In this document: positions 1 through 50,846 of the stretch, one piece after another | Layout of the letters: the number at the start of each line of letters is the position of its first letter | How positions within the stretch are numbered: position 1 is the stretch's first letter | Assembly (NCBI GenBank): GCA_964036045.1 | Contig: OZ038381.1 | Span: forward strand, 67,332,242 to 67,396,241 | DNA length: 64,000 nucleotides | Direction of reading: 5' to 3' | From: Eutreptiella sp. 'Long Island Sound 2002' | Lineage: Eukaryota > Euglenozoa > Euglenophyceae > Eutreptiales > Eutreptiaceae | Translations under genes and position numbers: made by a program | The notes under the pieces: generated by a model | What the model was told of the DNA's origin: nothing | What the model saw: only the letters and a program-made list of their open reading frames with translations | Database searches by the model: none

Positions 1-1
1 A

Positions 2-10330: not shown

Positions 10331-10369
10331 CCCCCACCCGCCGCCCCCCTTTGCAGAGCCCGCAGCACC

Positions 10370-16662: not shown

Positions 16663-16688
16663 TCAAACCTCAAACCTCAAACCTCAAA
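16663..16688 (+). repeat. E1 3' terminal heptamer tail (TCAAACC)3
   Basis: Three full TCAAACC units plus TCAAA lie at the switch from GC-rich element to AT-rich flank. Many LINEs end in a short tandem repeat rather than poly(A), so this is taken as the 3' terminus. Confidence 0.7.
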
Positions 16689-16689
16689 G

Positions 16690-26752: not shown

Positions 26753-27240
26753 CACACCGAAGCCGCAAGATGCACGAAGACGGAGACGAGACAAAAGAAA
26801 GTCATGGTATGCAACCCCATCCCCGCCCCACCCACAAACAAACACACGCTTTCTCTATAGGGGACGGCAACAAGAAGCGGCACAAGGTACAACAAGTATG
26901 TTGAAAAAAAAAAAAAAACACGAAACCGCCATCCACGCCCTCTCTATAGGGGAAACGCAATGCGGAGAGGTATGTTATCGAAGACGCAGCGAGAAAAAAA
27001 AAAAAAAGACGAGGGAGGAGACACAAACCACAACACGCAAAAAAAAAACAAAGACAAAAAACAAAAAGGACCTGCGCACGCTCTTTCTCAACAGGGGAAG
27101 AAAACATGATGGGACGAAAGGACAGGTACGTACTACGCATCACACATGCCACGCATCTCTGCTACGCATCTACAGGACCTCTTCTTCTGCCTTTTGAAAC
27201 ATGCCGACGACCGACGACGAGAACCAGCCAAGGTATGACA
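26753..27240 (+). other. E2 5' end with three A-tracts
   Basis: Contains A runs of 14-17 bases at about 26,904 and 26,995, plus a third A-rich cluster from about 27,040. Each lies near a short related segment (CTCTATAGGGG near 26,853 and 26,941; CTTTCTCAACAGGGG near 27,082). The arrangement looks like three imperfect copies of about 90-130 bp, perhaps a promoter/5' UTR repeat (inference). No gene. Confidence 0.4.
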
Positions 27241-27435
27241 CACCCCACCCCACCAACCACACACCGCGAGCACACGCACGCGCACGCACGACAGCCACAC
27301 CGAGCGCGACCCCCCCCCCCCCACGCCACCCACACCAACACGAAGGGCCACGCAGCGCACACACACACACCAGGGCCAAGGGGAAGGGCACCCGGAAGAC
27401 ACACCCACCGCAACACCACACCACACCACCACCGG
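27241..27435 (+). other. CAC/ACAC-rich lead-in to minisatellite
   Basis: Simple CAC-rich sequence without a credible ORF; grades into the minisatellite. Confidence 0.4.
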
Positions 27436-29680
27436 CAGCGAAACCCAGCCAGGAGTGGCGGGGAGTAGCACACAGGAACCTCCGCCAGGAGTGGCGAGGG
27501 ACCAACCACACCAGCCACAAACCCACCACACACGCCACCGCCGCACGCCACACGCCGCACACCACACACCGCACACCACGCACCACCGCCGACAGCGAAA
27601 CCCAGCCAGGAGTGGCGAGAGACCAACAACCAACACACCACCGCCACACACCACACACCACCGCCGCCAGCGGACCCCAGCCAGGAGTGGCGGGGACCGC
27701 CCACCACCACCGGCAGCGAAACCCAACCAGGAGTGGCGGGGAGTAGCACACAGGAACCTCCGCCAGGAGTGGCGAGGGACCAACAACCAACACACCACCG
27801 CCACACACCACACACCACCGCCGCCAGCGGACCCCAGCCAGGAGTGGTGGGGACCGCCCACCACCACCGGCAGCGAAACCCAGCCAGGAGTGGCGGGGAG
27901 TAGCACACAGGAACCTCCGCCAGGAGTGGCGAGAGACCAACCACACCAGCCACAAACCCACCACACACGCCACCGCCGCACGCCACACGCCGCACACCAC
28001 ACACCGCACACCACGCACCACCGCCGGCAGCGGAACCCAGCCAGGAGTGGCGGGGAGTAGCACACAGGAACCTCCGCCAGGAGTGGCGAGGGATCAACAA
28101 CCAACACACCACCGCCACACACCACACACCACCGCCGCCAGCGGACCCCAGCCAGGAGTGGCGGGGACCGCCCACCACCACCGGCAGCGAAACCCAGCCA
28201 GGAGTGGCGGGGAGTAGCACACAGGAACCTCCGCCAGGAGTGGCGAGGGACCAACCACACCAGCCACAAACCCACCACACACGCCACCGCCGCACGCCAC
28301 ACGCCGCACACCACACACCGCACACCACGCACCACCGCCGGCAGCGAAACCCAGCCAGGAGTGGCGGGGAGTAGCACACAGGAACCTCCGCCAGGAGTGG
28401 CGAGGGACCAACAACCAACACACCACCGCCACACACCACACACCACCGCCGCCAGCGGACCCCAGCCAGGAGTGGCGGGGACCGCCCACCACCACCGGCA
28501 GCGAAACCCAGCCAGGAGTGGCGGGGAGTAGCACACAGGAACCTCCGCCAGGAGTGGCGAGGGACCAACAACCAACACACCACCGCCACACACCACACAC
28601 CACCGCCGCCAGCGGACCCCAGCCAGGAGTGGCGGGGACCGCCCACCACCACCAGCAGCGAAACCCAGCCAGGAGTGGCGGGGAGTAGCACACAGGAACC
28701 TCCGCCAGGAGTGGCGAGGGACCAACCACACCAGCCACAAACCAACCACACACGCCACCGCCGCACGCCACACGCCGCACACCACACACCGCACACCACG
28801 CACCACCGCCGGCAGCGAAACCCAGCCAGGAGTGGCGGGGAGTAGCACACAGGAACCTCCGCCAGGAGTGGCGAGGGACCAACAACCAACACACCACCGC
28901 CACACACCACACACCACCGCCGCCAGCGGACCCCAGCCAGGAGTGGCGGGGACCGCCCACCACCACCGGCAGCGAAACCCAGCCAGGAGTGGCGGGGAGT
29001 AGCACACAGGAACCTCCGCCAGGAGTGGCGAGGGACCAACAACCAACACACCACCGCCACACACCACACACCACCGCCGCCAGCAGACCCCAGCCAGGAG
29101 TGGCGGGGACCGCCCACCACCACCGGCAGCGAAACCCAGCCAGGAGTGGCGGGGAGTAGCACACAGGAACCTCCGCCAGGAGTGGCGAGGGACCAACCAC
29201 ACCAGCCACAAACCCACCACACAGGCCACCGCCGCACGCCACACGCCGCACACCACACACCGCACACCACGCACCACCGCCGGCAGCGAAACCCAGCCAG
29301 GAGTGGCGGGGAGTAGCACACAGGAACCTCCGCCAGGAGTGGCGAGGGACCAACAACCAACACACCACCGCCACACACCACACACCACCGCCGCCAGCGG
29401 ACCCCAGCCAGGAGTGGCGGGGACCGCCCACCACCACCGGCAGCGAAACCCAGCCAGGAGTGGCGGGGAGTAGCACACAGGAACCTCCGCCAGGAGTGGC
29501 GAGGGACCAACAACCAACACACCACCGCCACACACCACACACCACCGCCGCCAGCGGACCCCAGCCAGGAGTGGCGGGGACCGCCCACCACCACCGGCAG
29601 CGAAACCCAGCCAGGAGTGGCGGGGAGTAGCACACAGGAACCTCCGCCAGGAGTGGCGAGGGACCAACCACACCACACAC
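27436..29680. repeat. Minisatellite with higher-order structure in E2 5' region
   Basis: A CCAGGAGTGGCG core recurs more than 30 times. Two classes of unit alternate: one containing CCAACAACCAACACACCACC and one containing CAACCACACCAGCCACAAAC. The second class recurs at about 27,505, 27,940, 28,248, 28,722 and 29,188, a higher-order period of roughly 310-475 bp. Units are nearly identical, suggesting recent homogenisation. Because the unit has no stop in some frames, long spurious minus-strand ORFs run through it. Confidence 0.9.
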
Positions 29681-30400
29681 CACCCACAACCCCGCCAACA
29701 CACCACCACCGCACACCACACACCACACACCACGCACCACCACCGCAGGACCAGAGGAGGGGGCGACACGCCCGCAAGCAACACAGCCAGGAACAGCGAA
29801 CACCCCCCCCCCCCACCACCACCACCCCACCCCGGAGAGACGGGACACCAACCACCGCAAACCGCACAGCGAAAAGGGGGGCGGGACGAAAAGGGCCCAC
29901 GGGGGGCGCCGGCGAGGGACCCAACCTCAGGGGTTTGGGGGCCCCCCCGGTGACCGTATCGGCCCCACCTGAGCACACGCAATAAGGTGGGATACGCCAC
30001 GGACCGTTGGTCAGCGGCCCGCGGTGGCACCGGCCTGGGGGGGTGACCAATGGGCCTGACCAAGAGCACTCCCCACGGCACGTACTGCGGTTCGGGCCCA
30101 GCGAGGGGCTGCGGGTAGGGCACACCGTCCATCGGGGCAGGCAAGAGACGCGCCTGTCCCGCGAGGACTCCCCAGCGACCCACAGTGTACCCGACCCCGG
30201 TGTGGGGAACGGCTGGAGTACCTGGCTACGGAACAGGTCCATGGACGGCATCCGTACAACAGAGTTACACCCTGACGGGGAGTGCAAGCACCGGCTCCCC
30301 CACGGGGAAACACCAGGGGAAGGGACCCGAGCCGGCGACAAGGACCCCCCCCCCACACACCACAGCCGGGAAGGCCCGGGCACGACACCGCCCCAAGCGA
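29681..30400 (+). other. Balanced-composition block in E2 5' region
   Basis: Between minisatellite and ACC-rich repeats, 29,860-30,330 has near-balanced, non-repetitive composition with many short complementary G/C blocks (GGTGGGATACGCCACGG near 29,985). No ORF with recognisable motifs. It may be a structured RNA or promoter within the 5' UTR (inference). Confidence 0.35.
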
Positions 30401-33400
30401 CACGGAAAAGAGACAGAAGGAGGAGGGCACACGCAAAGGGGACAGCAAGGGGACGCACCACCAACAGACCCCAGCCAAGGGGGGCGGGGAACCACACAGC
30501 CGAGACAGGGGGGGGGGGCACAACACACAGCCCCCACACCAAACAGGGCCGCCAAACCACGCCCGCAAAGGCGAGGGCAGGCGCCCCAACGCACCACCAA
30601 CACACCGCACACACGCCCGAGCGTGCACACAACACACACCCCCACAACCGCCACCGATACGAGCCCCACAAGCGCACACCACACACCAAAGCACAGGCGC
30701 CGCCCGCACCACACACGCAACACACACAAACCCAAACAACAGGAACCCAGCAACCCGCCAGGGGGACTGCAGGGCCGCCACAAGCCGCTAGGACGCAAAG
30801 CAGGACCCAGCAAGCCCGCAGCCAGGAGTGGCGAACGGCCACACCCAGTAACACCCGAACGGCCACGCCCAACACCAGGACCAGGCACTACGACACCCAC
30901 ACCAGCACCGCCACCAACGCCCAAACCGGACGCCACGACACCCTCACCAGCGGACACACCCGAAACCAGCAGAAGCACCATCGGCAACACCAGCGACCCC
31001 AGCACCCACCAACAACAAACCAACACAAAAAGCCACCCAACACTGCCCAACGACCGCACCCAACCGATCCGGTCCCCCACCGGCTCGCACCCAGAACCAC
31101 CGCCACCGACATCCACGCCATCGGAAACACCAACACCGCCAAAAATCAAGCCAGCACAACACCCTCACCAACACCGTCACCACCGGCACCAACGCCTACG
31201 ACACCTACGCATGCCACCGCCGGTTCCAGCACCTACATCACCCAAGCCAACGGCATCAAGCACACCATCGCCGGCAACACCCCACCATCAGCGTCGCCAC
31301 CAGCAACCTCTGCCACCGGAGGACACCGAAACCGCCACAGCCACCGCCACCGACACAGGTGAGCCAACAAACCACCAAGCCCCGGCCAGGGGAAGCGAGG
31401 GCACGCGCCCGGAACCACCATGCAATCCCCGGCGACACCCACACCACCGGCGCCGCCAACACCACCCTCACCCACGACACCACCCGGAGCAACACCTACG
31501 CCACCTACACCAACAGCAGCACCAGCAGACCACACCACCTACTGCACACCCCCCCAGACAGAGCCACAGAAACCGACCACCGCCCTGAACGCAAGCCGCG
31601 GACCACCCACACACAGACCCACGCCAACCACCACCAGCATCGGCAGCGTCCGAGACGCCGAGAACCATAGAGACACCCACAACGACCTCACCACCGGCAT
31701 CACCGACACCGACACCGGCAATACGGCCTCAGCACCGACAAACCAGAGCGTCAACGGCAATCGCCACGGCAACACCGCCCGGTACGACACCATTGGCATC
31801 AACAACACCAAGGGAGCCAACACACAGGCCAGCGACACCCATGGGTACCTCCACCAGGAGTGGCGAGGTCCCACCCCCGCCGTCAGAACACCACCATCCA
31901 CCAGGGCAACATCCGCAGCGCCCACATCGGCCGCAGCTCCACCGGCGGCGCCCTCGCCAACACCGTCACCAACACCGCGACGGCCAGCCACGAGTGGCAC
32001 GCCCGGAACCGCCGACCACCCAAACACAGGCCGCGCCCAGCACCAACACCAACAACGCCCACGCCAACAGACCACCACAACACACGCCAACCGGCAAGTA
32101 ACACATAAGGCACCCTCGCCTTCGGCAACACCAACGCCACCAACACCCACGGCACTATCCACACCACCACCAACCCCACCAACGACGGGCCGAGGTGCCG
32201 TCACCTACAACGCCCCCAACACCACCACCACGGCCCCGCCACCTGGGGCAACCCCACCAACGGCGTCACCAAGGACGCCAGCACGGCTAGCGAACAAACG
32301 CCACCGAGCCCTCAGCCAGGAGAGGCGAACGCCCGCACCCAGCAACACCCGAACGGCCACGCCCAGACCCAGGGCCAGGAACTGCGACACCCGCACCGCC
32401 GCCAGCACCCAAACCGAGCACCACAGCACCCTCACCAACGGGGACGCCCGGAACCAACAACGGACAAACAGCGGCCAAGTTACACCCAAGGCGTTCCAAC
32501 CGCGCCACCCACCGGCCCGCACCCAGAACCACCACCAGCACCAGCAACAGCCACTGACAACCCACACACAGACCCACACCAACCACCAGCAGCATCAACA
32601 ACATCAGCGACACCGTGAACCATAGCAGCGCCCGCAACGACCTCACCACCGGCACCACCGACGGCGCCACTGGCAGTGCGACCTCACCGACAGCAACCCG
32701 GAGCATCCCCCATCCCGCGTCCCGGTGAGACACCATCGGCAGCAAGGACACCGAGGGGGCCAAGGCCAACCCACCAGCCAACGACGCACGTGGGAACCTC
32801 CGCCAGGAGTGGCGAGGTCCCCCCTCCGCCGTCAGAACACCGCCAGGGCAGCACTTACAACACCCTACAACGCCAACACACACAGCTCCCCCGGCAGCAC
32901 CCCCATCAACGCCAACACCGGCACCACCGACAGCGGCAACACGGCGACACCACCACCCAACCGCAGCAAGGTCACCCTAAACCGCAACCGCAGCAACACC
33001 TGTCACTACGGACCCACGGACAGCCGACACCACCTGGACCACAGACCGGCCAAACACCAGCCACGAATGGCACGCCCGGAACCACCGAACACCAGCACAC
33101 AGGCCACCGGACCACCGCGAGACACACCACCGCCCCTAACACCCCTAACACCACCACCACGACCCCGGCACAGAGTAACACCTAGGGCGCCCCCATCGAC
33201 GACACCACCCAGAACACCACCACGGCTGGCGAACAAACGCCACCAGCGCAGCCCACCAGGCCCCCAACCAAGGGTAGAAACAACAACGCCACACGCCATC
33301 GCACCCACCGCATTGAAATCACCTGGAGCAACGTCAACATCAACCAGGGGTCCCCACCACCCACCCAAGCAGCACAAAACACCACAGCAACACCACCACA

Positions 33401-34300
33401 CCCTCACCACCAGCGACACCACCGCCAGCACCCTCCGCCAGGAATGGCGAGGAGAAGGCCCAACAGCGCGGACCCACCCAACGTCCCCGGCACCCTCACC
33501 ATCGGACCGTCACCACCGGCGCCGACCCCCAACACACCACCGTCACCAACGCCACCGACCCCGGACGCAAAAATCACACAGCCCGCACACACGGCACCAG
33601 AGCAACGCCGACACCACTCCCGGCCAACTCACACGAACACCACCGGAAGCACCACCGTCGACCGAACACCACGGCGACCCCAGGGTACGAGTCCCCCCAC
33701 CATCTGCACGGCCAGCGAAGCCGTCACCGGCACCAACCCGAACACCGACAACGACAGCCTCACCAACAACCGACACCCCCCTACCGCTGCCACCCACCAG
33801 TCACGCCACCCGCCGTCAAAGCCACCCACCAATGCCGCACCCCGAACCACACTTACACCCGAAACCGGCACCAGCACGCCCGGCCGAACCGTCAATGGCA
33901 CCACCGCCATGGCACGGCCTCAACGAGCACCGACGCCACCAACACCACCACCGCCGGACAGGGACTACCCACAAACCAGGAACATCTCCACCACCAACAA
34001 CCAATACACCACCCGCGGCACCCCACCATCGCCGACACCACCACGGCACCCATCACACCTCCGCCACCGGAGGCGACGTGGGCCACACCACCCGTCAACT
34101 ACAGCACCCTCGCCACCACCGCCACATCCGGCCCACGAACGTTACCGCCGACAACACCACATACGCCCATACGTCACCCACGCCATGCTCACCGACCATC
34201 ACCTCGTCATCAGAGACACCAACACCACCGGCGACGACGACAGCGACAACAGCTGACCCACCAGCTAACCACCATCAATCATAGCCCAGCACCAGCTTCA
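30400..34300 (+). repeat. ACC/AAC/CAC-rich degenerate repeats with coding-like Thr/Asn peptides
   Basis: Three plus-strand frames are open in turn (30,185-31,588; 31,420-32,625; 32,725-34,284), giving Thr/Asn/Pro/His-rich peptides. Long-range repeats are visible: 31,660-31,920 resembles 32,615-32,860 (955 bp apart) and 30,820-30,960 resembles 32,310-32,450 (1,490 bp apart). The minisatellite core reappears at 30,820, 31,857, 32,808 and 33,440. Some frames read like beta-solenoid repeats (DTHTTGAANTTLTHDTTRSN near 31,425; NAHTTLANSAATD near 34,311). It may be a decayed repeat-protein gene or just expanded 5' UTR sequence; no single frame is intact. Confidence 0.45.
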
Positions 34301-34855
34301 TCTACTCTAACGCCCATACCACCCTCGCCAACAGCGCCGCCACCGACACAATCATCCACTCCGGCGCCCACACCACCCTCACCACCAACATCACCAACAC
34401 CACCACCCCCAGGGTCAGGGCCCGCGGGAAACAGAACGGCAGAGCGAGCACGCCACCACCCGCACGCGTCGCCCACCCTATCGTACACCGCTCCGCAACA
34501 CGCCCCCCCCGCTTCCCCTGACAGGGCGTGCGCTCCAGCCCACTGCTGGGAAGACGACTTCGACATCCTCCCGGCCATCCGACACCTACTGGCAGCCACG
34601 GCCCCGCGCACACAAGCCCACCAGCAACCCACGGAACCGCAAGAGCCCGACCACCCCATGCCACCACGCTCCATATCCCCCGCGTCAACCGCAGACCGGA
34701 ACGCGGAACACCAGCGAGAGGAGCCCGACCCCGGCCGCGCCGCCACGCCCCCACCGCCCCCCCCCCCAAAGGACATCTACGCCACGCTGGCCAGCACCCT
34801 AGCCCCCATTGAACGCCGAGCAGTACTACCAGTCCGTCCAACGAGACCTCCCTGA
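34301..34855 (+). other. Possible N-terminal extension of ORF A in another frame
   Basis: The frame ending at TGA 34,853-34,855 is open upstream past 34,250 and becomes of normal complexity near 34,540 (CWEDDFDILPAIRHLL), with an ATG at 34,658. It overlaps the start of ORF A (open from 34,803) by about 50 bases. A +1 shift in the overlap would join KDIYATLASTLAP to the ORF A frame. This may be programmed frameshifting, a mutation, or coincidence. Confidence 0.35.
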
Positions 34856-37800
34856 GGACCACGCGACCCTCCAGGGGTGGAAGCAGGAGAAAAGGTACGA
34901 CAACGAGTGGGGCACAGAGGAAGACCTTCTCTGGGACGACACCTGGAAAGGCACCGCGGACACCTTCCTGGAGGCAGCAGCCGAAACCTACCCCCGCCCG
35001 CCCGGGGACACCAGACACGGCCTCCACGCCCTCCTAGCGTTCCACAGCTGGAAACACCGCCACACCGTCACCCTCCACCCCCTCGACCACAATCCGCACC
35101 GATGGACACCTGAAGACGACGCCACAGCCACCATCACCGTACAGCAAAGCCCCGAGAACCCGGAGGAATACCACATCACCTGGGACGATCCGGCACCCCA
35201 CCCCCCCACCTCCCCCACCCTCCCAGATGTCTTCGCCGCCTTCAGTGCAGAGCTCCAGGAGGCCAAAGCCCCCCACCAACTGGACGAAGACATGCCCCAG
35301 GCACCATCACCATCAACCACACAAGACCAACCCCGCACAGAGCCCCTCACCCACCCCATCACCACAATGGAGCTCCCCCCACAACACCGCACCACCCCAG
35401 ACCGAAACGGGTTTCGAGACCTGCCGCGGGAATGGGCGGTCCACAACGGCACACTCCGATGGGACGAAATCACACCGGGCCTCCAGGCCATCCGCCTCCA
35501 CTCAATCGCAGAGCCCACCACCACCTGGGCACTACCGACGGACCGCCACCACCTCCTCCTCACCGTCCAAGGCGATGCCACGATCACACCCACGGAAGGA
35601 GACCCCGTAACAGCAGCCGCCGCCCACGCCGTCCACATACCCCCGCAAGCATCGTCGGCACCTATGACGGTGCATCCAGGCCCCACCCCTTGGCAGGCCA
35701 TCGTCGTCACCTACCCCGCCCCCAATGACCACACACATACCTGGCAGCAACGATGGGAGGACATCCGAGGGGACCTCCTCCAAGAACACCTAGGGCTCAC
35801 ACGCACCCACCACACCCTACAACCGATACGAGGAGTAGGCCAAGCGTCACACGGCATACACGCCCCGGGAGTATGGGCCTACGCCACACCCATAAACCCA
35901 CAAGCAGCGGAGGACATCAAGACCGCCCTATCCATCCAGCAAGCCCAGACCCAAACCCCGCACCGCAACACCCAACGAGGCTACACAATTTGGTGGGCGT
36001 ACCAAGACCATGACACCCTCACCCCCCAATCGGGGGCCCCCCCTCTAGACACCAACACCACCGCCCTCCTCCAAGCCGCAACAGCGGCAGCCACACAGGT
36101 AGGGGCCCCGGAAACCTGGGGCCCACAATACCTGGTCGAAACCAAAGTGGCGCCCCACGCGAAGGGCCAAGACAAGCCCCCAACACCGAAGCCGCTCCAC
36201 CCCCCGCTCAAGCTAGACCCGACGGAGCACACCCCCCAGGATGAATGGGCGACCGACTACATCATCCCCCACACCACCACCCGCAAGAACGACGCCGCCA
36301 AGATCACCGTCACCCGCCACCTCCCCCACACCACACAGATGTATGAGCTGACGGCCCCCAACGTCCTCGTCACCCGTCGCCGACACGACGAGCGATACAC
36401 CATACAGGCGGAAGGGGCCGCCGCGACCACCCTGTACACATGGGCAACACGGGGGGACCTCCCACACCCCACCCTCCACCACGGCCCCTCCTGGCCCACC
36501 CCCTTCCACACAGCGGACCGCCCCAACAAGAAGCCCAAACACACGGGTGTGCACACCCACGCCCAGGAGGCCCAGCACCGACACGAAGCGAGGCGCAAGG
36601 CCCGCACCCTCCACGACGACCACACCATCCCCCGCATCGGCGCCCCCCCCGCCAGGGTATCAGATACCACCCACAACCGCACGATCACAGGCATCACCAC
36701 GGACTGCCTGAACCCAGCGGCGTCGCGGGCAGACGCCGTATGGATCAGCGAAAGGCGCTCCCACACACGGGCGGTGGCGCGCCTCCACAACATCCAACCC
36801 CACAAACTCCAGCGCGCCGTTGGACCCTTCGCCGTACACGTCACCCCGTACGGCATCGACCACCCCCGGTGTGAGCACCATGACCCGCCCTGCTCCACCC
36901 CATGCACCTCGCCCCTCCGCCAACCGCTGCCGGCCCCCACCATCACGGGCAACATGTACCTGGGCACCGTACCGGGAGACCCGGGCATATACATCCTGCC
37001 CAACAGGTCCAGGGAACACGCCATCCCCCTCCACTGTGTGGAGTCCCTCGCCCTGGGACCACCCCCACCAAAACACCAACACCAACACATCCCGGGGGAC
37101 AAACGGACACAGGCCCCAGACGGGGGAAAAAAGGCCCACCAACGCGCCCTGGCCCACATCACCCTCCACCCCGCAGCCCACCTACCAAAGGACTTCGGCA
37201 CGGAGCGCCACATCGTCCTGGAGGGCCAAGCCCACCACATCATCACCGCCGCCCTGTACACCCTCGCCGCCCACGAACGCCACTGGGACCCCACAACCAT
37301 CCCAGCAATGCCCCCACCGCCCCAAGGCCCCAACGATCCCGTCACCCCCTTCCACATCGATCAACTCCTAAGCCGCAAGGCCCCCCCACACCTCCACCCC
37401 TCCAGGATACCACTAGCCATTGCATCGTGGGACACCCTGGACACCCCCCCCCAACAACCCGCCATCCACATCCTCAAAGCGGACACCCAATGGTGGGTCC
37501 TCCACTGGGCACACGGAGTCCTCATGGCGGCCCAGGCCTATACCCCGGAAATGGACCCGGAAGACCCCCCACGGGGCCAGCAGCGACTCCTCCAAGCCAC
37601 CACCCTCACAGGCCGCGAAGGCGCCCCCTGGGAAGCCCTCCACACAGCACTCTACTGGGCTCAAGGCTCCCCCAACGGCCCGGACACACCGGAACCCACA
37701 GAGGCCTGGGTCAGGCAGGCCAAGGCCATGAGGAACTACCACCTACACCACCCCTTCGACGACAGCCCCGCCGCACTGCCATGGCCAACAGATCCCCCGG

Positions 37801-38546: not shown

Positions 38547-38584
38547 CGGGGCAAGGGCCGAGGGCACAAGCCTCCACAGCCCCG
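38544..38584 (+). promoter_or_regulatory. Candidate UGA-CGG readthrough signal joining ORF A to ORF B
   Basis: The stop UGA is followed by CGG, one of the two codons of the type II readthrough class known from tobra-, furo- and pecluviruses. Directly downstream, CGGGGC 38,547-38,552 pairs with GCCCCG 38,579-38,584, and inside it GAGG 38,560-38,563 pairs with CCTC 38,571-38,574. ORF B continues in the same frame with no AUG until 38,682. Confidence 0.6.
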
Positions 38585-41500: not shown

Positions 41501-43895
41501 CAACCACACGTGCCCAGAGAAAAAGCCACTAGCGGTCCTCTGCGGAGACCTCCACCACCACCCCAAGGGCACCATCCACACCATAGACCTTGTCGGGGCC
41601 TCCATCACCGTAGTATACGTCACCCTCGCCCAAATGCGGGTCCTGCACCACAGCGGGGCACACCACACCCCCTTTCTACAGCTTCCCGAATGGCCACAAT
41701 ACCGCCTCTTCCACCACTACCTCACACAGACGGCACGAACAGCGGGACACACTCTACCGGGCAGCAAAGACATGCGCATAGCCTACCGAGAATTCACAAG
41801 GCAACACCCGCGACCCATCCCAGAGACACCGCCCTACGCACCCACCGGATCGAAACACGAACCCGTCCCCCCAGTAACGGGCCCAGTCCCACCACTAACC
41901 CTACTACTGGCCCCGAATGAAGCCAAACCCACGCGGACCACCGTCATCCACCACGGGGCAAAATGGCGCATACCGAAACACCACATGACCGCCCGAGACC
42001 TACCAAAGGTCCCCCAAGATTCCCAGAGCATGCCACGCACATGTTGGGCCTGTGACCCCGAGGCACCGACCGCACCATGGCCCGTGCTACACCTCATAGC
42101 ACGCCACCACACCCACCCCACGACCCACCTACCACCACAGGCCTACGCATGGATAGCCCGGTGGTTCCACCGCACCGACACTAACCCCACGGTAGCATGG
42201 GACCCCGACCACGCGCCCAAATGGCTCTTCACCACTACACCCACATGCCCCCGCCCCGACCCGGCAGGGGTCGCCATCCGTTACAGCATGTACGAGCCAG
42301 GCAGAACGGGCAAACACGAGCACCCCTACTATCCACTCCACCACTCCTGCCACACACCGGAGCACCGAACACAAACCCTCACATGCCACGACCTAAACCC
42401 CGACACAGCCTACATCCTCCACTACATCTACTCCTACCTCACACAAGGACAGCCGGAGCAGGGACTCATAGCCCTGTCCCCCCAAGCAAAGCACATCATC
42501 TCCAAAGGAATAGGGGTGTACGCCACCCCCATCCTACAGCCCACAACCCCAGTAGCCCACCTCGCCACGGGCCTTGCCATATACGCCTACCTGCCCATGA
42601 ACCCATGCCGCCTCCCACAACCATCACCGGCGGACCGGCTCTTCTTCACCGACGCCTCAGGCGAATCCGCCCTCACGCCCATCACCAGGGGGGCCACCCT
42701 GCAACTAACCCACACCGGGGAACACTACCACATGGACCACCACACAGGCCACACCACCTATGGGGCCTCTTCCCACGGGGAGCTAGGGGCCATGGCCGAC
42801 GCCATCACCGAGGTCGCGGCCCACCTACCCGCCCACTCCCCGCACATCGTCCGGGTCTGGTTCGTGGTAGACGCCACTGTCGACACGCACCTGCTCCTCC
42901 GCATAGCAAGGCAACCACTTCACAAAGCAACCGCGACGAGCCTCGGCACCCAGGCACTGCTACTCTGGAAAGCCCTACGCAGCCTTCCCCCCTACGTCCA
43001 ACTCCACATCGTGAAACAAGAGTCCCACAGGCACCAATACGGAAATGGTAAGGTCGACAACCAGGCAGTACACCAGCGCACAACACACCTACCAGCCCTC
43101 CAGATCCCTGACCTCGGCCGCAACCACACACACCTCCAACACGTACCCCCTGTACCCGAGCCCCATCAGACCCCGGACTGGGTACCAGAGGACGCCCCCT
43201 ATTCCTCCCACGACAGAGCGTACCACTACCCCAACCCCGTCCAACATCTAGCCCGCGTGCTCGGCGACGCAGACAGCCGGGCGCACATCCAGGAGCTCCA
43301 GGACAGACTGCAAGTCCCCCTCTACCACTCAGCGCTCCGCCCAGCAAACGTCCCAGCCCACCTCCAGAAACGACGCATCCAGCTCCTCAGGGAGCAACTG
43401 CCTTTCCTCACCAGGGTCGCCAGATGGCTCGCCCGCAAGCACATCCACGTCCCCGACGAACACACCCGTTGCCCATGCAACCACACCACCCCGGAGGACT
43501 GGGAACACTTCAAGAAATGCCCCCTCCATACAGACAGGGACACCCTAGTGGGCTGGTCCCCGGCGGAAACCCTGCGGCAACACGAAGGATGGCCAGCCCA
43601 CAGCCACGCACACCAGGCCACCGAACACCTCTTCCGGGACCCCCTGATCAAAGAAGCCACCATGAGAGGGGCAGTGACACAGGCCCTGCACCGACACCTC
43701 ACCAAACACACGGAAAGCCCCATGGAAGCAGCAGCACACCTCCAGCTAGAAGCGGTCCGCAGAGCAGCAGCCCAAATGGTACACCGCAAACACCTCCTGC
43801 TAACACACGCGGAACAACTCACCGACCCCACTGCCAGGGAACACATGCAGCGTCTCATCCACTACCATGCCGTGCATGACCCAGACGTCCACTAA
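38547..43895 (+). CDS. E2 ORF B: APE-type endonuclease, reverse transcriptase, RNase H, zinc finger
   Basis: About 1,780 codons, starting straight after the ORF A UGA; the first AUG (38,682) would cut off the N-terminus of the endonuclease. Endonuclease motifs: LTFQEQG near 38,720, NVINTH near 38,922, IIGDMN at about 39,024-39,041, SRIDV near 39,196, and TGHSPL near 39,271 in place of the usual SDHxP. RT: SLDVKGAF near 40,412, GVPQGGAEGP near 40,578, and FADD at 40,704-40,715. RNase H: FFTDASGE near 42,633, SSHGELGAM near 42,772, VVDATVDTH near 42,865, then a final His/Asp region (VKQESHRHQYGNGKVDNQA, about 43,014-43,070). A C-x-C-x12-H-x4-C finger lies near 43,470-43,520. It ends in TAA after a helical, charged tail and overlaps ORF C by 29 bases. 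Confidence 0.9.
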   Translation, partial: RGKGRGHKPPQPRPAPTEATVNLLDLNHPAVTYSKDATTALQELPMAQGPGWVPHLLTFQEQGLQRDDPPETTPMYTPDQKAYKCYWHKGTPLYAQTGIHVHLVHHLSVPGRLGVYEVVGDGWQLNVINTHVPFGEATEPFLQALAEAYRQMAMLAPTVIIGDMNAAPTPADRGGQATPQDQAVRDTIEMLGLVDLTASLEGQPSHFPHQTDAAPSRIDVCYGDPTTIIRAEARYGPLPLGPTGHSPLHIRLTIPNLPPSPPEDADQGLPPPLKMPPLHDKHAWSQYHRAIDRARRIQPDPTDLLTAMRTAAVACGFQQHPHTDDDQPPTALGDMLHDLWHAKQQLATLLHTDTPQTRRQIHHCRTHIAQIRADLQRWHIHRQQRIAQEHERYAQHELPYKAIRHLNDAMTDTGHRTITTVRQEDGSLTNDPATVLQATQDSFLRQHTPTQDTLDPDTQAKIDRLPRVFNHAQRRHLEKRPFTIHEVRKAIHSLRQHKTPGYDGLPAEAYYHLPAHLLRVLTHRLWDIVTGRTPLPPDWANVVRPLYKKGDWANPDNWRPIVCAVTEVKIVWTILLRRIRPHLDPHIPASLWGAIPGRSPHEAIFLQDTIADMDPVDLIIASLDVKGAFPNTPWLLLEAVWKRLGLPFYNFTSDYIRTRKYTVRTGAGLTPFLEPGSGVPQGGAEGPFLYLLVTLPLALAIEQDYPAYAPYPLLSPLVGFADDTNLTVAHTPHDPHAPDPGPTVTQQANDLLDVTVSYLSHNNLIVHPTKSVAMIKGSATPPTLGPQGPPMQVVTTTTHLGVVQAANPEDATLPPKLQSHLAHLPRYASPTTKALSLSHQSLAYYLTGVLNASIGFQALHLTHPTTALQPATRAVTKAWAAHGGWPTSIPTRAIRAAWPHYGDAIGDEVKAAYTRHTALLLHRMTHNHSPEVREVTAIRLQAAQRARNTCPRWVLHQTGMPTNMNTRLWNHLQLLLPSPHHAILTNHTCPEKKPLAVLCGDLHHHPKGTIHTIDLVGASITVVYVTLAQMRVLHHSGAHHTPFLQLPEWPQYRLFHHYLTQTARTAGHTLPGSKDMRIAYREFTRQHPRPIPETPPYAPTGSKHEPVPPVTGPVPPLTLLLAPNEAKPTRTTVIHHGAKWRIPKHHMTARDLPKVPQDSQSMPRTCWACDPEAPTAPWPVLHLIARHHTHPTTHLPPQAYAWIARWFHRTDTNPTVAWDPDHAPKWLFTTTPTCPRPDPAGVAIRYSMYEPGRTGKHEHPYYPLHHSCHTPEHRTQTLTCHDLNPDTAYILHYIYSYLTQGQPEQGLIALSPQAKHIISKGIGVYATPILQPTTPVAHLATGLAIYAYLPMNPCRLPQPSPADRLFFTDASGESALTPITRGATLQLTHTGEHYHMDHHTGHTTYGASSHGELGAMADAITEVAAHLPAHSPHIVRVWFVVDATVDTHLLLRIARQPLHKATATSLGTQALLLWKALRSLPPYVQLHIVKQESHRHQYGNGKVDNQAVHQRTTHLPALQIPDLGRNHTHLQHVPPVPEPHQTPDWVPEDAPYSSHDRAYHYPNPVQHLARVLGDADSRAHIQELQDRLQVPLYHSALRPANVPAHLQKRRIQLLREQLPFLTRVARWLARKHIHVPDEHTRCPCNHTTPEDWEHFKKCPLHTDRDTLVGWSPAETLRQHEGWPAHSHAHQATEHLFRDPLIKEATMRGAVTQALHRHLTKHTESPMEAAAHLQLEAVRRAAAQMVHRKHLLLTHAEQLTDPTAREHMQRLIHYHAVHDPDVH

Positions 43896-46800
43896 CCCGC
43901 TCCGCGCCCCGCACGCGCCCCCTGTCTCCATCCACAGGTCTCCAAGGCACCACCACAGCGCCCCGAGACCCGTCTCGCACCCAAGAAGCCACCCGGCACC
44001 GCCCAGTCCGGCCGAACCCAGCCAGGGCCAACCATCCATCGACGTAGACGCGCAAGACCCCGGCAGCCCATCCAGCCCACCCCCCCCGGACCCGGGACAC
44101 CCTCCCCTCACACCGGCCACCATCCGCGACCCCGACCTCCTCCGAGCGACCCTCCAAGACAGGGCCCCGACCACCCCCCTGGGCTGGTACCGCCTACAAG
44201 AGGACTGGACCAAGCTCACCGTCAAAGCCCTCCGGGACCTGACCACCCCAGGCAGCGGCCTCCACGAGACCATAGTAGACCTCGTGCTCTGGCGAGCCCG
44301 CAAACACACCCAGGGTCAGCCCATCTGGATCCCCCCCATCGAGTGGGGCCAGGCCCTGACGCACGACACCGGCAGCAACGTCACGCGTCGAGGGACCGTA
44401 CGCCTACGGCGGGCCCAAGCGGAGACGGACCACCCAGCGGACCCGAACCACCCGGAGCAGTGGGAACAGGCCACCGCGCCAAACCGCGACACCGCCCTCC
44501 GCGCCGCCGGCCTCCGCACCCCGGACGACGACCTCCCCCCCCCACCTACAGACAGTGACCACCCCCCGCCGGAGGTCTGGGTTACAGTCCTCGAGCGCGG
44601 CCACTACTACGTGATAGCCGCTATGGCTACGTCCCACGGCCCGCAATGGATCATCCAGGGGACAGACACCATGTTCGCCCCGGAGACCGCCCCACCAGGG
44701 GCAGTGGGGGACCCCACCACCCAGCACAGGATCCTCAGGGGTCTCCTCCAGCCAGGGGACACGCCCCCAGCCCGCGCCCTGGCCCAAATCACCTCAGGGA
44801 AGGCGGGCTACCACCTGGGATTGTCCATGCTCTGCCTAACCCACTGGATCCAGCGCCACTGGCCACCCACGGGGACCGTGCCCTGGGTTTGGGCCATCCC
44901 CACCGCCCACACACAAGTCGAAGCAGGCCCGGACACACGACCAAACCCCCCCCCCAGGCCGCAGCAGTCCCTCACCTGCGGGTACCACGCCATCTACAGG
45001 GTCCTCAACCGCGCGGGTCTTAGCCCAAAGCTAGCATGCCCCCTTCCCACCACTGACCAAGAGGTCCACCAGATACGAACGCTCATCTGCGAAATCCTTG
45101 CCGCGGCAGCAGAAGACGGCAAGCTTCTCCTCCAAACCGCCCGGCCTACAACTGCCCACGCAAGCGCGCAGCAAGCGGACACATACACCGGCGCAGCACA
45201 ACCCCCCGCACAATCCCCGCCCAAGCCCCCCCCCTCTCGCTGCTCAACCGGAGACCCACACACGCCCACTATCGCCCGCACCCCCGGGCCCCGCGACACG
45301 GGCCTCCCCCACCCGCCCGAACACCAGCACACGCCCGCCACACACCCAACCACCGGCCACCCTTCACCGCCCCCCACACTCGACAACCCACACACACCCG
45401 CCAAGGGGAGCCCCACGCCCCGCGGCACGCCCACCCCACCCAGTGGCCCGCCCACGCCCCCCACACACACCCCAGAGGACCCAGGCCCACCCCCCCCGGC
45501 CCCTGAATGCAGCCCACGCAAACTGTTCCCCCCCGCTGACACAAACACACACGACCTCGCACATTGCAGGACCCGGGCCCAGCCGAGCCCAGAAAGAGAA
45601 GGCCGCAGCCCCGCGCCTCCCTCCCCCGCCGCAGCCGACCAGATCGGCCCGCCGGGCCGCCAGGTCACGACCGGGCCCCCCCAGCCGCCCGCCCCCAACC
45701 TACAACCCGGGGACATGCCCTCCATCCTCCCCGCCGTGGCCGCGGCAGAAGCCGCAGCCCGCAAGCCCGCCCGCATCACAGCCCAACCCGCGTCCACCAC
45801 CTCCTCCTCGTCCTCAGCCTCGTCCACCTCCTCCACCTCATCCTCCGACCCCCCCCTCCCCGCCAAACTCATCCTCAAGGCCACGGCGAAAGCCAAAGCC
45901 GCGGCCGCACGCACCAACCCCCCAACCCCCACACAGGCGACTCAGGCACCCCGGCAACCCACCGGGACGATCCCCGACCCGACATCGACGCCCTCACACC
46001 TCCGGACAGAGGTACTCCTCAACCTGGAACCGGACCCCAACCCCAAACCCGACCCCAAACCCAAACCGGACCCCAACCCCAAACCCAACCCCAAACCCAA
46101 GCCTGCGCCCACGCGACCACACACAACACCGCATACGCAACGACACAAAACCACCCGATACCTCCCCCGCCCAGGCCCTCGCCCAAGCCAGGACCCCCCA
46201 CCCACCACGACCCGCGCCCCCCTCCCGCCGGCACCCACCACCACCGCGGTGACGGCCACCCAGCACGACCCCCTCCAAACCCTCGTCAAAATCCCCGTCA
46301 TCAAGCGCCCCGTCATCCATCCCCCACAAACCACCACCACCGCCGGCCAAACCGACCCAGGGACGTGGGACCCCTCAACCATCGTCACCGTCAAGCCCGG
46401 CCCCCAACCCTTCCTCCATGCCCACCACATAGTGCAGCCCCGGGGACTGCCCACGATGCCCAACCCCCCACCCCCACAAGGGGGACCGGAAAACCCACAA
46501 GGACTCCATGGGCCATACCCGCAACACCAACCCCACCACTACACACACCACCACCACCAGCGGCCCCACCACCACCACTACCAACACCACCCCCACCACT
46601 ACCACTGCCCACCGCCCTACCCCACCGGGCCACAACCCCCCGTACACCAACAGCACCAGCGGACGGGATGGCAGCCGCCGAACGCCCCGCCCGCATGCCC
46701 ACCCCCCCCGTACCAGCCACCACCCCCGTACCAGCCGTACCCCCGCGGCCACCATCCGATGGCCGAGGGGGCCCCATGGACGACGGGGGATCTCCCCCCC

Positions 46801-47970
46801 CAACCAGCACCGCGTGACGGCCCGTACCCCCCCGGCCACCATCCGATGGCTGAAGGGGCCCCAAGGACGACAGGGGACCTCCCCCCCCAAGCGGCGCCGC
46901 GCGAGCCCCCCCAGAGGCCGCCGACGCTTCCGGACTGGCCCGACTCCAGCGACGAGGGCCGGTCCCGCAAGCGGCGGCGCTCCCGCTCCCCCCCCGCACG
47001 GCACACTCGCCCACGGCGCCCACACTCCCACCGCGCCTCAACCACCCACTCGCGCCGCTCCCGCTCCCCCAGGTACCACCACGACCCCCAGGGACCCCGC
47101 TCCCGTCGCTCCCGCTCCCCCAGGCACCACCACGAGCGCCACCGCCGCCCCATGTCCCCCTCCCCCTCCCCCCACCGGCCACCCAGCCCCCGCCACCACC
47201 ACTCCCGCTCCCCCCGACGCAGCCAGGCACGCCGCCGCCGCCCCACGTCCACCTCCCCCTCCCCCCACACGCCCCGCCGGGCTCCCCGGTCCCCCCGCCA
47301 CCCGTACCCATCCACCACCCCCAGCCCCCGCCACCACCACTCCCGCTCCCCCGGACGCCACCAAGCGCGCCACCGCCGCCCCATGTCCACCTCCCCCTCC
47401 CGCTCCCCCCTCCGCCCGTACCCGTCCTCCACCCCCAGCCCCCGCCGCCGCCGCTCCCGCTCCCCCAGGCACCGCCACCCCGACCACCACCGCAGGTCCA
47501 CATCTTCCCCCCGCCGCTCCAGGACCCCAGGCACGGACCCCTCCCCCCCCCGGGCCCCCGCCTACCTCGCCTGGTGGTCTCCCTCCGCTCTGCAGGAGCT
47601 CCGCCGCTGGGTGAAATGGGCCGGGGGAGCGGGAAGGCACAGAGGGGTGCACACGGTGCATACCTTCGAGGAGGTGCGCACCCGCACCCCCGCAAACCCC
47701 AATGAGGCCGCCCCGGAGGCCATCATGCCGCAAGCGGCATGGGAGGCCCTCCTCCGCGATGCGGTCCAGGGCCTCCGCCCCCCCTACACCCCCCAAGCCC
47801 TCCGCCGGTGGCTCCAGGCCACCCACCCCCAAGCCTGGGCCACCGGCGCCCCCTCCCCACCCCGCCCCTCCCACCACCACCACACCAGGAAGGGGCAGGA
47901 CAAGAGCAAGGGAAGGGCAACGGACACCAAGGACCACACAGGCAAGAGGGCACGGAAGGGCCCCAAGTGA
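43867..47970 (+). CDS. E2 ORF C: Ulp1/C48-like cysteine protease with poly-His and RS domains
   Basis: 1,367 residues, ATG inside the end of ORF B (different frame). Residues about 90-400 look like a C48 (Ulp1/SENP/adenain-type) protease. LHETIVDLVLWRARKHT and IPPIEWGQAL resemble the substrate-side helix region. His246 lies in ERGHYYVIA, Asp267 in GTDTMF, Gln366/367 and Cys371 in QQSLTCGYHAIYRVL. The His-Asp-Gln-Cys order matches the family; the Asp-Cys spacing (104) is longer than in yeast Ulp1. A Pro-rich linker follows, with a NPKPDPKP-type repeat (about 46,025-46,110), a His-rich block (46,540-46,610), an RS domain (about 46,960-47,520, many SRSP repeats), then a Trp-rich module (RRWVKWAGGAGRH) and basic tail. 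The order resembles E1 ORF4 apart from the protease. It may process the readthrough polyprotein or remove SUMO/ubiquitin from host proteins (inference). Confidence 0.7.
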   Translation: MPCMTQTSTNPLRAPHAPPVSIHRSPRHHHSAPRPVSHPRSHPAPPSPAEPSQGQPSIDVDAQDPGSPSSPPPPDPGHPPLTPATIRDPDLLRATLQDRAPTTPLGWYRLQEDWTKLTVKALRDLTTPGSGLHETIVDLVLWRARKHTQGQPIWIPPIEWGQALTHDTGSNVTRRGTVRLRRAQAETDHPADPNHPEQWEQATAPNRDTALRAAGLRTPDDDLPPPPTDSDHPPPEVWVTVLERGHYYVIAAMATSHGPQWIIQGTDTMFAPETAPPGAVGDPTTQHRILRGLLQPGDTPPARALAQITSGKAGYHLGLSMLCLTHWIQRHWPPTGTVPWVWAIPTAHTQVEAGPDTRPNPPPRPQQSLTCGYHAIYRVLNRAGLSPKLACPLPTTDQEVHQIRTLICEILAAAAEDGKLLLQTARPTTAHASAQQADTYTGAAQPPAQSPPKPPPSRCSTGDPHTPTIARTPGPRDTGLPHPPEHQHTPATHPTTGHPSPPPTLDNPHTPAKGSPTPRGTPTPPSGPPTPPTHTPEDPGPPPPAPECSPRKLFPPADTNTHDLAHCRTRAQPSPEREGRSPAPPSPAAADQIGPPGRQVTTGPPQPPAPNLQPGDMPSILPAVAAAEAAARKPARITAQPASTTSSSSSASSTSSTSSSDPPLPAKLILKATAKAKAAAARTNPPTPTQATQAPRQPTGTIPDPTSTPSHLRTEVLLNLEPDPNPKPDPKPKPDPNPKPNPKPKPAPTRPHTTPHTQRHKTTRYLPRPGPRPSQDPPPTTTRAPLPPAPTTTAVTATQHDPLQTLVKIPVIKRPVIHPPQTTTTAGQTDPGTWDPSTIVTVKPGPQPFLHAHHIVQPRGLPTMPNPPPPQGGPENPQGLHGPYPQHQPHHYTHHHHQRPHHHHYQHHPHHYHCPPPYPTGPQPPVHQQHQRTGWQPPNAPPACPPPPYQPPPPYQPYPRGHHPMAEGAPWTTGDLPPQPAPRDGPYPPGHHPMAEGAPRTTGDLPPQAAPREPPQRPPTLPDWPDSSDEGRSRKRRRSRSPPARHTRPRRPHSHRASTTHSRRSRSPRYHHDPQGPRSRRSRSPRHHHERHRRPMSPSPSPHRPPSPRHHHSRSPRRSQARRRRPTSTSPSPHTPRRAPRSPRHPYPSTTPSPRHHHSRSPGRHQARHRRPMSTSPSRSPLRPYPSSTPSPRRRRSRSPRHRHPDHHRRSTSSPRRSRTPGTDPSPPRAPAYLAWWSPSALQELRRWVKWAGGAGRHRGVHTVHTFEEVRTRTPANPNEAAPEAIMPQAAWEALLRDAVQGLRPPYTPQALRRWLQATHPQAWATGAPSPPRPSHHHHTRKGQDKSKGRATDTKDHTGKRARKGPK

Positions 47971-48486
47971 GGGCAGGCACACGCAGGGACAGGGCGCCGG
48001 AAGCGACACCACATGGGGTCAGGAAACCACCCAAGAACCAGGAAGGAACGGGAACGGGGACCAAGACACGGAGGAAAAGGGCACCACGACAGCTGCCACG
48101 ACCCACACCAACGGGGAGACCAGCGCCGCCCCACCCCCACCAAACACCCCAACACACACCACCGAAGCAAACATCGGACGCCATGCGGATCACACCAGCG
48201 CACGCCCACCGGCCACCGGAAACCACACGGAGAACGGAGGGCACACCTACACGGGGAGAACGGACCACACCCACAGAGGAGGCCGCAGGGAACACCGCCG
48301 CACGGCACACCACCATGCCCTCACCGCCAGCCTACGACCCCGACCACCACGAAGGCCAACTCACAGGCACCGGAAGAGGACGAAAGCACGGCCGCGGCAC
48401 CCACGACTACGGACCGACACCCCCAGAGGACACGGGACCAAGGCACAGGCCCCCAGGGAGGGCAACCCCACGGACCGTCACGCGAC

Positions 48487-49112
48487 CACACCATGGGCTA
48501 TAAGGGCCGGGCTGCGCTACCGTCGCGGTTTGACGCAGAGTATTGCTACGGGGGCTTGATCTCGGCTGGTCTCACGTCCGTGAGGGCGTCCGTCACCAAC
48601 CTGTTGCGTCCAGTGGAGGAATGGCACTGCTGCGGCGCACCGATCCCGTCCATGATGAATATCGAGCATCGCAAGGGGAAGCGAAACGCTGTGATCGATC
48701 GCGAAGGCTTTGGTGCTGCTGGACGGTGCCCCCCTTCAACGCCATCTCCGAGCGCCGTGAAGACTGGAAGTACCAAGAATACTACCGATGCCCCGGACCC
48801 CAGCAGTCCAGCACCGGAGATATGGACATCCCCCTGACCCTACAGTGTGAGCTCATCCCTGCCGGCGGCACCGACCCGGACCCTGCCAGCGCAGCCGAGC
48901 TGCAGTGAAAGCCATTTGCCACTCAAACAGCGTTCGGAAGCCACCTCCACCGTCCGACTCCTGATGTCTGTTTGTCTGCCTTGGAGAAGGAACGCTTTTC
49001 CTACACCCCGAGTACACCTGCCTGTCTGCGAGGCCCGGTGAAGATTGAGTCCATGGGTGAGAGTCAGTGTGCACGCCCCAAGGACACCGTGATAGTTCAG
49101 CAGAATTTCCCG
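48487..49112. other. Foreign segment inserted in E2 3' UTR, absent from E3
   Basis: E2 and E3 agree up to GTCACGCGA and again from ACACAGGCCAGG. Between these points E2 has about 640 bp, E3 about 130 bp of other sequence. The E2 segment has balanced composition, unlike the C-rich 3' UTR. It has an ATG in good context at 48,493 and an open frame to 48,837. A second frame gives a normal-looking peptide (NAISERREDWKYQEYYRCPG near 48,740) ending at 48,908. It may be host exon sequence captured by the LINE or a small mobile element; no RNA gene family is recognised. Confidence 0.6.
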
Positions 49113-49685
49113 AAGACCTAACCGACCCACACAGGCCAGGCTGACCTCCACTGACCCACCGCGGCACCACGCGAGACCGGGGCACACCGCACCACAGCGC
49201 GCCACAGAGCAACGCACCACAGCACGACGCGACGCGACGCGGCACAGAGCGGCACAACACGACACAACTGACCCTAACCTGAGGGACTAACCGAAGCCAG
49301 CCACCGCACACGCGGGAAGGCGCCGCGCCACCACGCCACACACCGGCACCACAGGCCACACACGGGACCACAGCGCGCCAGGCGACAACGGTGACGGACC
49401 ACCCAGAAGATTACAGCCGGCACCGCGGAGGGGTAAGGACACGAGCAACCCCAGCCCCCTAACCCAAAACCACAAGCAGCCGCCTGGCGCAGCCGCCCAG
49501 CCGGCAGAGCCAGGACCTAACCCAGCAAGAAGGGGCGCCGAGCCCACAGTGTACAGAGCCCACCCGACCCATGGGGCCGGAACATGGCCACACAGAACGC
49601 AACTGAAAACAGCAGCCCGGAAGACAACACTGAATACAGGCCAGTGCGTGCGCCAGCCCAGGGAAGGCAGAGGGAGGAACAGGCA

Positions 49686-50043
49686 AGCCCCCCCCCAAAA
49701 AAAAAAAAAAAAAGGAGGGGGGAAGGGGAAAAGGCACGAAAACAGCCCACAGCCGCCCAACCACCCGCCAACACCACCACAGGCGGCCAGGCCCCCCCCC
49801 AAGGAAAAAAAAAAAAAAAAAAAAAAGGGGGACCCCCGCAGAGGCACAGGCGAACCACCCACCCAAAACCGGCAACACCAAGCCAGTAACAGCGGACCAC
49901 GGGGAAAAGGTACAGAAAAAAAAAAAAAAAAAGAGAGCCACCAGCCCAGCCCGAAAGAAAGGGGATGGAGGGACAGGGACCACAAAGCCCAAAAAAAAAA
50001 AAAAAGAAAAGAAAAAACCAAAGCAAAAAAAAAAAAAAAAAAA
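49686..50043 (+). repeat. Six A-tracts of about 10-27 bases in E2 3' UTR
   Basis: Runs of A lie at about 49,698, 49,806, 49,915, 49,991 and 50,025, some preceded by C runs. The same places in E3 (57,070-57,400) have only 8-13 A with interruptions. This suggests tract expansion in E2 or shrinkage in E3. Confidence 0.7.
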
Positions 50044-50360
50044 CACACCCCAACAACCCAGCCAAGACGGACTGGGCACAGGCGAGACCCGGGCCCGGCA
50101 CACACGCCCACACCGCGCGCCGGAACCGGAAACAGCGGGGGGCAAGCGGGGCGCCCACGAAACCACACACGTCCCAAAAGCAGACCGAAACCGAAACCCA
50201 ACCACGAACACCACAAATAGCCGACACTAAGGGGACAACACCACAAATCGAGCCCAAAAACACCCACCCTAAACCCCAGCCAGGACAGACGGGGTTAACA
50301 AAACCCGCACCCAACCGCCAACCGGACCCAAACACAAACACCACACAACAGTAGGAAGCC

Positions 50361-50383
50361 CAGTGCCCACAGCCTGGGCACTG
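50361..50383 (+). other. Conserved 8-bp hairpin in E2 3' end
   Basis: CAGTGCCC 50,361-50,368 pairs with GGGCACTG 50,376-50,383 across a 7-base loop. E3 keeps both arms near 57,703-57,725. A candidate RT recognition or RNA stability element (inference). Confidence 0.5.
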
Positions 50384-50818
50384 AGGCAGCCCGTGCCATG
50401 CAGGTGACCCGGCCAAACGAGATCCGGAGCCCGGGGGTAAGGCTGCATCCTAAGGCCAGCGCTGCTTTGGGACTCGAGGCGGAGCGTGCGACACCCAAGC
50501 GCCTCGGAACCCTAGTACCAGGAACGTGCATGCACGCCTTGGGAACGGGATACGCCAGGAAGTCCGGTGAACCCCTAGGGTTCCGCCCAAAGGAGGGGAC
50601 GTGCGCAAGCACGGGGGCACACCCTCCCGGCGAGACAAGCACGTCACGCTGGCGGCGATCAGCCCTCCCGGCGTAACCCGGGGCCGCTTTTTTGGGGGCC
50701 AACAGTCAGGTCTAGCGGGAAGTAAGCCGCCTCCCCTCTTCACGCGCGAAGCCTCTTCCTGTTCGTCACAGGGGCGACGCCAGGGGGAACCATGGGGCGC
50801 CTCTCCACGACCGAGTGC

Positions 50819-50834
50819 ACCTACCTACCTACCT
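50819..50834 (+). repeat. (ACCT)4 3' terminal tail of E2
   Basis: Four ACCT units end E2; the same four units end E3 at 58,161-58,176. The last T may belong to the target duplication. Confidence 0.8.
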
Positions 50835-50846
50835 CGTGAAACAAGA
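50834..50846. repeat. Right 13-bp target-site duplication of E2
   Basis: Identical to 26,740-26,752. Sequence then resumes the interrupted E3 ORF B (GTCCCACAGACACC, E2 equivalent at 43,022). Confidence 0.9.

Follow-up and report, generated by a model that had tools for sequence, protein, structure and literature searches.

The 64,000-nt stretch of the Eutreptiella sp. 'Long Island Sound 2002' genome analysed here (contig OZ038381.1, positions 67,332,242 to 67,396,241; referred to below as the window) contains a 24-kb insert, E2, with the features of a long interspersed nuclear element (LINE). LINEs are usually 4-8 kb long, and the processivity of reverse transcriptase (RT) is thought to limit their size. 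The locus raises the question whether an element of such length moves as one unit by reverse transcription. To answer it, we searched the genome assembly (2.28 Gb, 2,205 contigs), in which the window corresponds to C4:67,332,242-67,396,241. Our results indicate, with little room for doubt, that E2 is a 5'-truncated copy of a LINE family without long terminal repeats (LTRs) and with an apurinic endonuclease (APE)-type enzyme, whose full unit measures about 25 kb.

Self-comparison of the window showed that an outer copy of the same family is collinear with E2 and that the alignment is interrupted at the 13-mer TCGTGAAACAAGA (25,298-26,752 corresponds to 41,569-43,021, and the sequence from 50,831 onwards to that from 43,006 onwards). 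In the whole window the 13-mer occurs only at 26,740, 43,009 and 50,834, and in none of 100 shuffles. This bears out the initial annotation, which had set the ends of the element at 26,753 and 50,833 by a perfect 13-bp target-site duplication (TSD), single in the uninterrupted sequence (43,009). The insert so delimited is 24,081 bp long, has CACC(TACC)n at its 3' end and is enriched in A and C on its top strand. No end-to-end repeat was seen in E2 by self-comparison, neither LTRs nor terminal inverted repeats, and the sole match between the 1.8-kb 5' leader and the last 3 kb was an internal A-rich stretch of 58 bp. The parts of E2, including its open reading frames (ORFs), are as follows.

26740..26752, + strand: left TSD copy, 13 bp, TCGTGAAACAAGA, within the RNase H coding sequence of the outer copy
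26753..50833, + strand: inner LINE copy E2, 24,081 bp, about 1.1 kb shorter at the 5' end than full-length copies (5'-truncated)
26753..27240, + strand: what is left of the 5' leader, including splice-donor-like GGTATG motifs; the leader is about 1.1 kb longer in full-length copies
27399..29748, + strand: 157/471-bp tandem array in the 5' region of E2
29749..34802, + strand: remainder of the long GC-rich 5' region, without protein assignment
34803..38546, + strand: ORF A, 1,247 codons between stops, first in-frame ATG at 35,292
38547..43895, + strand: ORF B, 1,782 codons between stops, first ATG at 38,682; RT, APE motifs, RNase H motifs, Cys/His motif
43867..47970, + strand: proline-rich ORF C, counted from the first ATG; its start overlaps the ORF B end
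47971..50833, + strand: 3' untranslated region, ending in GAGTGCACCTACCTACCTACC
50834..50846, + strand: right TSD copy, 13 bp

For comparison with other insertions we sampled ten copies, the best matches to the first kilobase of E2 after the window's own, and read their 5' and 3' parts. Upstream of the E2 start all ten continue, with 97.8-99.5% mutual identity over the 1,000 bases examined. The 5' terminus, GTCGCGCGATCGCAGCAG, is reached in full by eight of them and to within 7-11 nt by the other two (C15 lacks its first 11 nt and C4:106 about 7-8 nt); beyond it the flanks of the copies are unrelated. Full-length copies carry about 1,119 nt 5' of the position matching 26,753. That position is the truncation point of E2, about 1,119 nt inside the full unit; it is not the start of the family, nor is E2 the intact element that the initial annotation had described. 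When 30 termini were compared (the ten earlier ones and 20 further copies found as exact matches to the terminus pattern), the first base, G, lay at the same position in 28 of the 30 motif-bearing termini, and the base preceding it followed no consensus (C in 12/30). With C15 and C4:106 added to the motif-bearing termini, 28/32 therefore start at one base.

The distance from GTCGCGCGATCGCAGCAG to the (TACC)n tail amounts to 24.4-25.2 kb in nine of the ten copies, including the one on C1 (approximately 25.2 kb), whose 3' end is followed by a second, truncated insert. The tenth, on contig C682, measures 33.1 kb; it is collinear up to about 32.4 kb on the E2 scale and then contains extra sequence. 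Stretches flanking the 10-kb middle project to E2 with equal spacing, within 3 bp, in 9/9 copies, and no N was present in the copy loci examined for gaps. The first 63 Mb of C1 contain five exact 5' termini. Four of them have a same-strand 3' terminus 25.1, 25.3, 25.4 and 26.2 kb downstream; for the fifth, the nearest listed 3' terminus is at 42 kb. In the 3' region nine copies differ from E2 by only 0.75-1.6%, and the family has therefore been active recently. We conclude that the family is a single mobile unit of about 25 kb and not a pile of insertions. The earlier claim of a single LINE of more than 20 kb that moved as a unit thus stands, with a size even greater than proposed, as the ten other copies share the 5' region, with none starting near 34 kb, and a terminus located about 25 kb from the tail.

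Clear TSDs of 12-16 bp were found in eight of the ten other copies, and the number of units in the (TACC)n tail differs between copies. Genome-wide, with up to two mismatches allowed, we counted 208 5' termini, spread over many chromosome-size contigs, vs. 5,218 3' termini (reversed-pattern controls gave 0 and 0). This is the 5'-truncation signature of target-primed reverse transcription, and thus about 4% of copies retain the 5' end. In the mechanism that we propose, an internal promoter would start the 25-kb RNA at GTCGCGCG, and the encoded proteins would nick the target DNA, start synthesis from it at the tail of the RNA and reverse transcribe this RNA. Some 4% of copies would reach the 5' end, where the RT would often continue onto a different template; copy-specific foreign pieces would thereby be added ahead of second-strand joining.

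Such pieces are present in all eight copies with a clear TSD, in which 2, 21, 22, 30, 35, 40, 54 and 242 nt lie between the TSD and the 5' end, and two of them could be traced. The 242-nt piece (C4:106.04) is an internal part of a dispersed sequence present at 40 places, itself included, with 95-100% identity (the best 40 of 130 candidates); two places are alike over 1.2 kb, and no match of the dispersed sequence to E2 or its leader was observed. For the 54-nt piece of the C682 copy, a 30-nt part was found at 68 places, again including itself. That both belong to other dispersed sequences suggests template switching, and pieces of single origin fit a switch of the RT from the RNA 5' end to another RNA. 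The foreign 5' piece of L035 gave nothing in Rfam.

Some upstream pieces are common to several of the 30 termini: C7:24.2 and C7:24.39 share 30 nt, four others share 26-36 nt, and C3 and L057 share 12 nt. These are compatible with a piece having been inherited or with transcription starting upstream, and they favour an explanation of the foreign pieces as 5' transductions, in which transcription began upstream of the source copy and the flank was carried along. However, the upstream sequence is unshared in most of the 30 termini, and neither traced piece has a place within 5 kb of a 5' terminus, except in the copies themselves, among the 100 of 208 genomic termini compared. In addition, the 5' terminus is sharp to one base, as expected if the RNA normally starts there. 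On this evidence transduction appears a somewhat unlikely explanation, and we lean slightly to template switching as the main source of the foreign 5' pieces.

Two other accounts of the family itself fare far worse. The first, that the 5' 8 kb are a separate repeat, nested insertions beside an ordinary LINE of 16 kb or less, or an assembly join, is suggested by the tandem-repetitive nature of the 5' region and by the lack of a codon-position signal among copies (29749..34802 of E2), but it is highly improbable: the 5' regions of the ten other copies are collinear (that of C682 as far as about 32.4 kb), their flanks differ and they share a single terminus, the total length matches in 9/10, and a TSD brackets the whole element in 8/10, so that for the copies examined this account is refuted as far as they were read. 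Spread by amplification at the DNA level (segmental duplication or DNA transposition) would suit the great length of the elements and the approximately 98% identity of the best-matching copies, yet we give it hardly any credence in view of the 25-fold excess of 3' ends, the variable simple-repeat tail, TSDs of about 13 bp, unrelated flanks, the existence of 5'-truncated copies (E2 and the outer copy), 30 5' flanks that share only short upstream pieces, mainly in groups of two and four copies, and ORFs A-C in which Pfam found no transposase or integrase domain.

Several points nevertheless weigh against reverse transcription of a 25-kb unit. C15 is without a clear TSD, and that of C23 is imperfect (12 of 14 positions, by eye). 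The middle 10 kb of nine copies was judged by spacing alone, and the assembly could in principle hold collapsed repeats, though the flanks differ between copies. The value of 4% is rough, because the 3' pattern may be more widely shared among related subfamilies than the 5' pattern. The 25-kb transcript is deduced from DNA alone. Finally, the APE domain of ORF B carries GH at one motif where APE enzymes usually have DH, and its activity is uncertain because of this replacement.

The initial annotation had assigned endonuclease, RT, RNase H and protease to the element. Of these, RT was established by Pfam (RVT_1, E=2.8e-15), and the best PDB match of the RT region of ORF B was L1 ORF2p (E=2.2e-13). 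Endonuclease and RNase H are recognised in ORF B by motif only (GDMN and GHSPL for APE type, TDASG and YGNG for RNase H); Pfam reported RT alone, with no APE or RNase H match. A Pfam hit to the endonuclease model was obtained for two related proteins, P0005 and P0010, that of the latter lying exactly on the cut-off. On these criteria one protein combines APE, RT and RNase H. A search with the ORF B protein led to a cluster, P0001, of 758 member sequences. No Pfam match to a restriction-like endonuclease was obtained in ORFs A-C, where APE-type motifs are found instead.

Comparison of the outer and inner copies showed that 33 of 55 differences in ORF B (43,022-43,890) fall at third codon positions, and the frame was therefore under selection. 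In ORF C the third-position excess is hardly present (146/388); eight of 16 indels there have lengths divisible by three, and some of these lie in repeats whose unit length is also divisible by three. ORF A shows no excess (13/72; the copies are young, with too few changes among them) and no Pfam match above the cut-off. ORFs A and B lie in one frame and are separated by a single TGA in the context TGA CGG, which is kept in both of the other copies found to cover the junction (L010, L018), and read-through of this codon is possible.

For the protease, the only support is a candidate Ulp1-like motif in ORF C (GHYYV / D / Q..CG), noticed by eye and without a Pfam or PDB match; the AlphaFold model of this part has a mean predicted local distance difference test (pLDDT) score of 35, too low to use. 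ORF C may encode a Ulp1-like cysteine protease. Another protein, P0027, combines a different RT and RNase H with a segment sharing 85% identity with part of ORF C, perhaps as a chimera or through an insertion.

The 5' leader consists in part of diverged tandem units. In a full-length copy, GGTATG occurs eight times in the first 1,640 nt (0.07 expected; 0/500 shuffles reach eight), vs. once only in 28,400-50,833. By eye, several of these sites lie in splice-donor-like AAG/GTATG contexts, and pyrimidine-rich stretches ending in AG precede short leader segments that start with GGG. Our guess from these motifs is that messages of the family could be spliced. Rfam gave no match up to E=5 at three 5' ends and nothing on the whole window, and within the window no spliced-leader match was found to the dinoflagellate leader or to a Euglena spliced-leader fragment.

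The outer, older copy that E2 interrupts is bordered by a much longer duplication.

25304..26752, + strand: outer copy, 5' part, truncated inside ORF B
50834..58176, + strand: outer copy, 3' part
24700..25303, + strand: left copy of the outer 603-bp TSD (576/604 aligned columns identical)
58176..58778, + strand: right copy of the outer 603-bp TSD

This copy is only about 8.8 kb long because it is itself 5'-truncated. The initial annotation had cited 'E1 (over 16.7 kb)' as a sign that the size of E2 is no isolated case; the interrupted copy (25,304-26,752 and 50,834-58,176) does not have that size, and E1 is most likely the different LINE at 1-16,690 described below. A 645-bp stretch of E2 (48485-49129) is absent from the outer copy, which has about 131 bp of other sequence there.

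Ten genome matches were obtained with the left flank of the outer copy. The one in the window itself is the sole full-length match, and that of the right-hand TSD copy begins exactly at 24,700. Paralogous empty sites on C5 and C3 contain the target once (491 and 495 bp) and lead directly into the right flank; both are interrupted further left by other sequence, and this test covers the right side. The single target at the paralogous loci and the match edge at 24,700 thus make it most likely that the 603-bp duplication was made by the insertion. On C1, where the second 5'-truncated copy adjoins the full-length one (L016, ~5023-6111, copy oriented), the second insert has a direct repeat of approximately 198 bp (210/211 aligned columns identical), and on its 5' side there are also about 280 bp of other sequence. 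Judging from these two repeats, long duplications therefore seem to occur besides the common class of 12-16 bp. A 603-bp TSD is far outside the usual range, and the two paralogous empty sites serve as its controls.

The left part of the window (1-16690) is occupied by a different, GC-rich LINE with a (TCAAACC)n tail. Its ORF at 3,638-10,330 contains APE and RT by Pfam, the RT being 26% identical to that of ORF B. It would exceed 16.7 kb, if it is one element, because it runs off the left edge of the window. Its first 700 bases in the window match over their whole length, at 98-100%, at the best 40 of 1,723 candidates, and it likely represents a second giant LINE family. An inverted fragment at 17545-20287 is 79% identical to 4,650-7,446 of this LINE. 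Pfam analysis of eight flank ORFs gave a single weak match, below the cut-off. Elsewhere in the assembly, COX1 matches are scattered over many small contigs, and most can be read without interruption in the standard code. For one of them, the nearest hit with an organism name was the COX1 of Euglena gracilis, at 68% identity; this result points to a euglenid host, probably other than E. gracilis, and speaks against a dinoflagellate. A COX1 in L045 on contig C42 is AT-rich, has seven in-frame TGA codons and is unlike the assembly's euglenid COX1 genes; it comes from prey, a symbiont or a contaminant.

The 208 copies with a 5' terminus at about 25 kb imply that 25 kb can be copied within a single reverse transcription reaction in the cell, and the E2-family RT is a natural enzyme for a processivity assay. 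How the cell makes, exports and translates a genomic RNA of 25 kb with a leader of about 9 kb is a further question that the family raises. Taken at its fullest, our interpretation would be that this is the largest LINE family on record, that its processive RT copies the 25-kb RNA end to end in about 4% of insertions and then routinely switches to unrelated RNAs, and that the GGTATG-rich leader allows both spliced messages and unspliced genomic RNA. For this combined proposal we put the chances at just short of even.

Trypanosomatids are the sister lineage of euglenids, and the euglenid host matters because these relatives have LINEs, ingi/L1Tc, with the same APE-RT-RNase H content. The TSDs of ingi/L1Tc are around a dozen bases, like those of the E2 family; ingi is near 5 kb, and the E2 family is about five times as long. 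The order APE, RT, RNase H is the same in both, with the domain content of ingi as given in PMC12278014, whereas the E2 family has two further large ORFs and a (TACC)n tail instead of poly(A). The 5' end of ingi/L1Tc carries a promoter and a ribozyme, according to excerpts of PMC12278014, PMC4035085 and PMC4748587; for a Pr77/hepatitis delta virus (HDV)-like ribozyme, no Rfam match was obtained at three E2-family 5' ends with the Rfam models. LINE clades with RNase H (the I group), and a few with Ulp1-like proteases, are described in part of PMC4640811, and the likeness of the E2 family to ingi and the I group is one of domain content. NeSL/Utopia elements are LINEs with a Ulp1-like protease (PMC4640811), for which the E2 family has a candidate motif. 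Their endonuclease is restriction-like, and the protease forms the N-terminal part of the same protein, whereas the E2 family has an APE-like enzyme and a candidate protease in a downstream ORF.

Terminons have an RT of the Penelope-like class and are associated with telomeres, whereas the RT of the E2 family is that of an APE-type LINE and its termini are distributed over many chromosome-size contigs. Both are very large RT elements with several ORFs; the giant Terminons of bdelloid rotifers are mentioned in PMC5718144. Nothing like the family appeared among the matches listed for very long or euglenid LINEs, which comprised titles and starts of abstracts, with few subscription papers and no preprints. 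The L1 of mouse has a repetitive 5' leader, and mouse and human L1, 6-7 kb in length, have a sharp 5' start and copies that are mostly 5'-truncated. In contrast to L1, the E2 family is 25 kb long, possesses three long ORFs and RNase H motifs, and ends in a simple repeat. As a LINE it belongs to a known kind; new are its size, its three-ORF layout with a leader of about 9 kb, and its long duplications.

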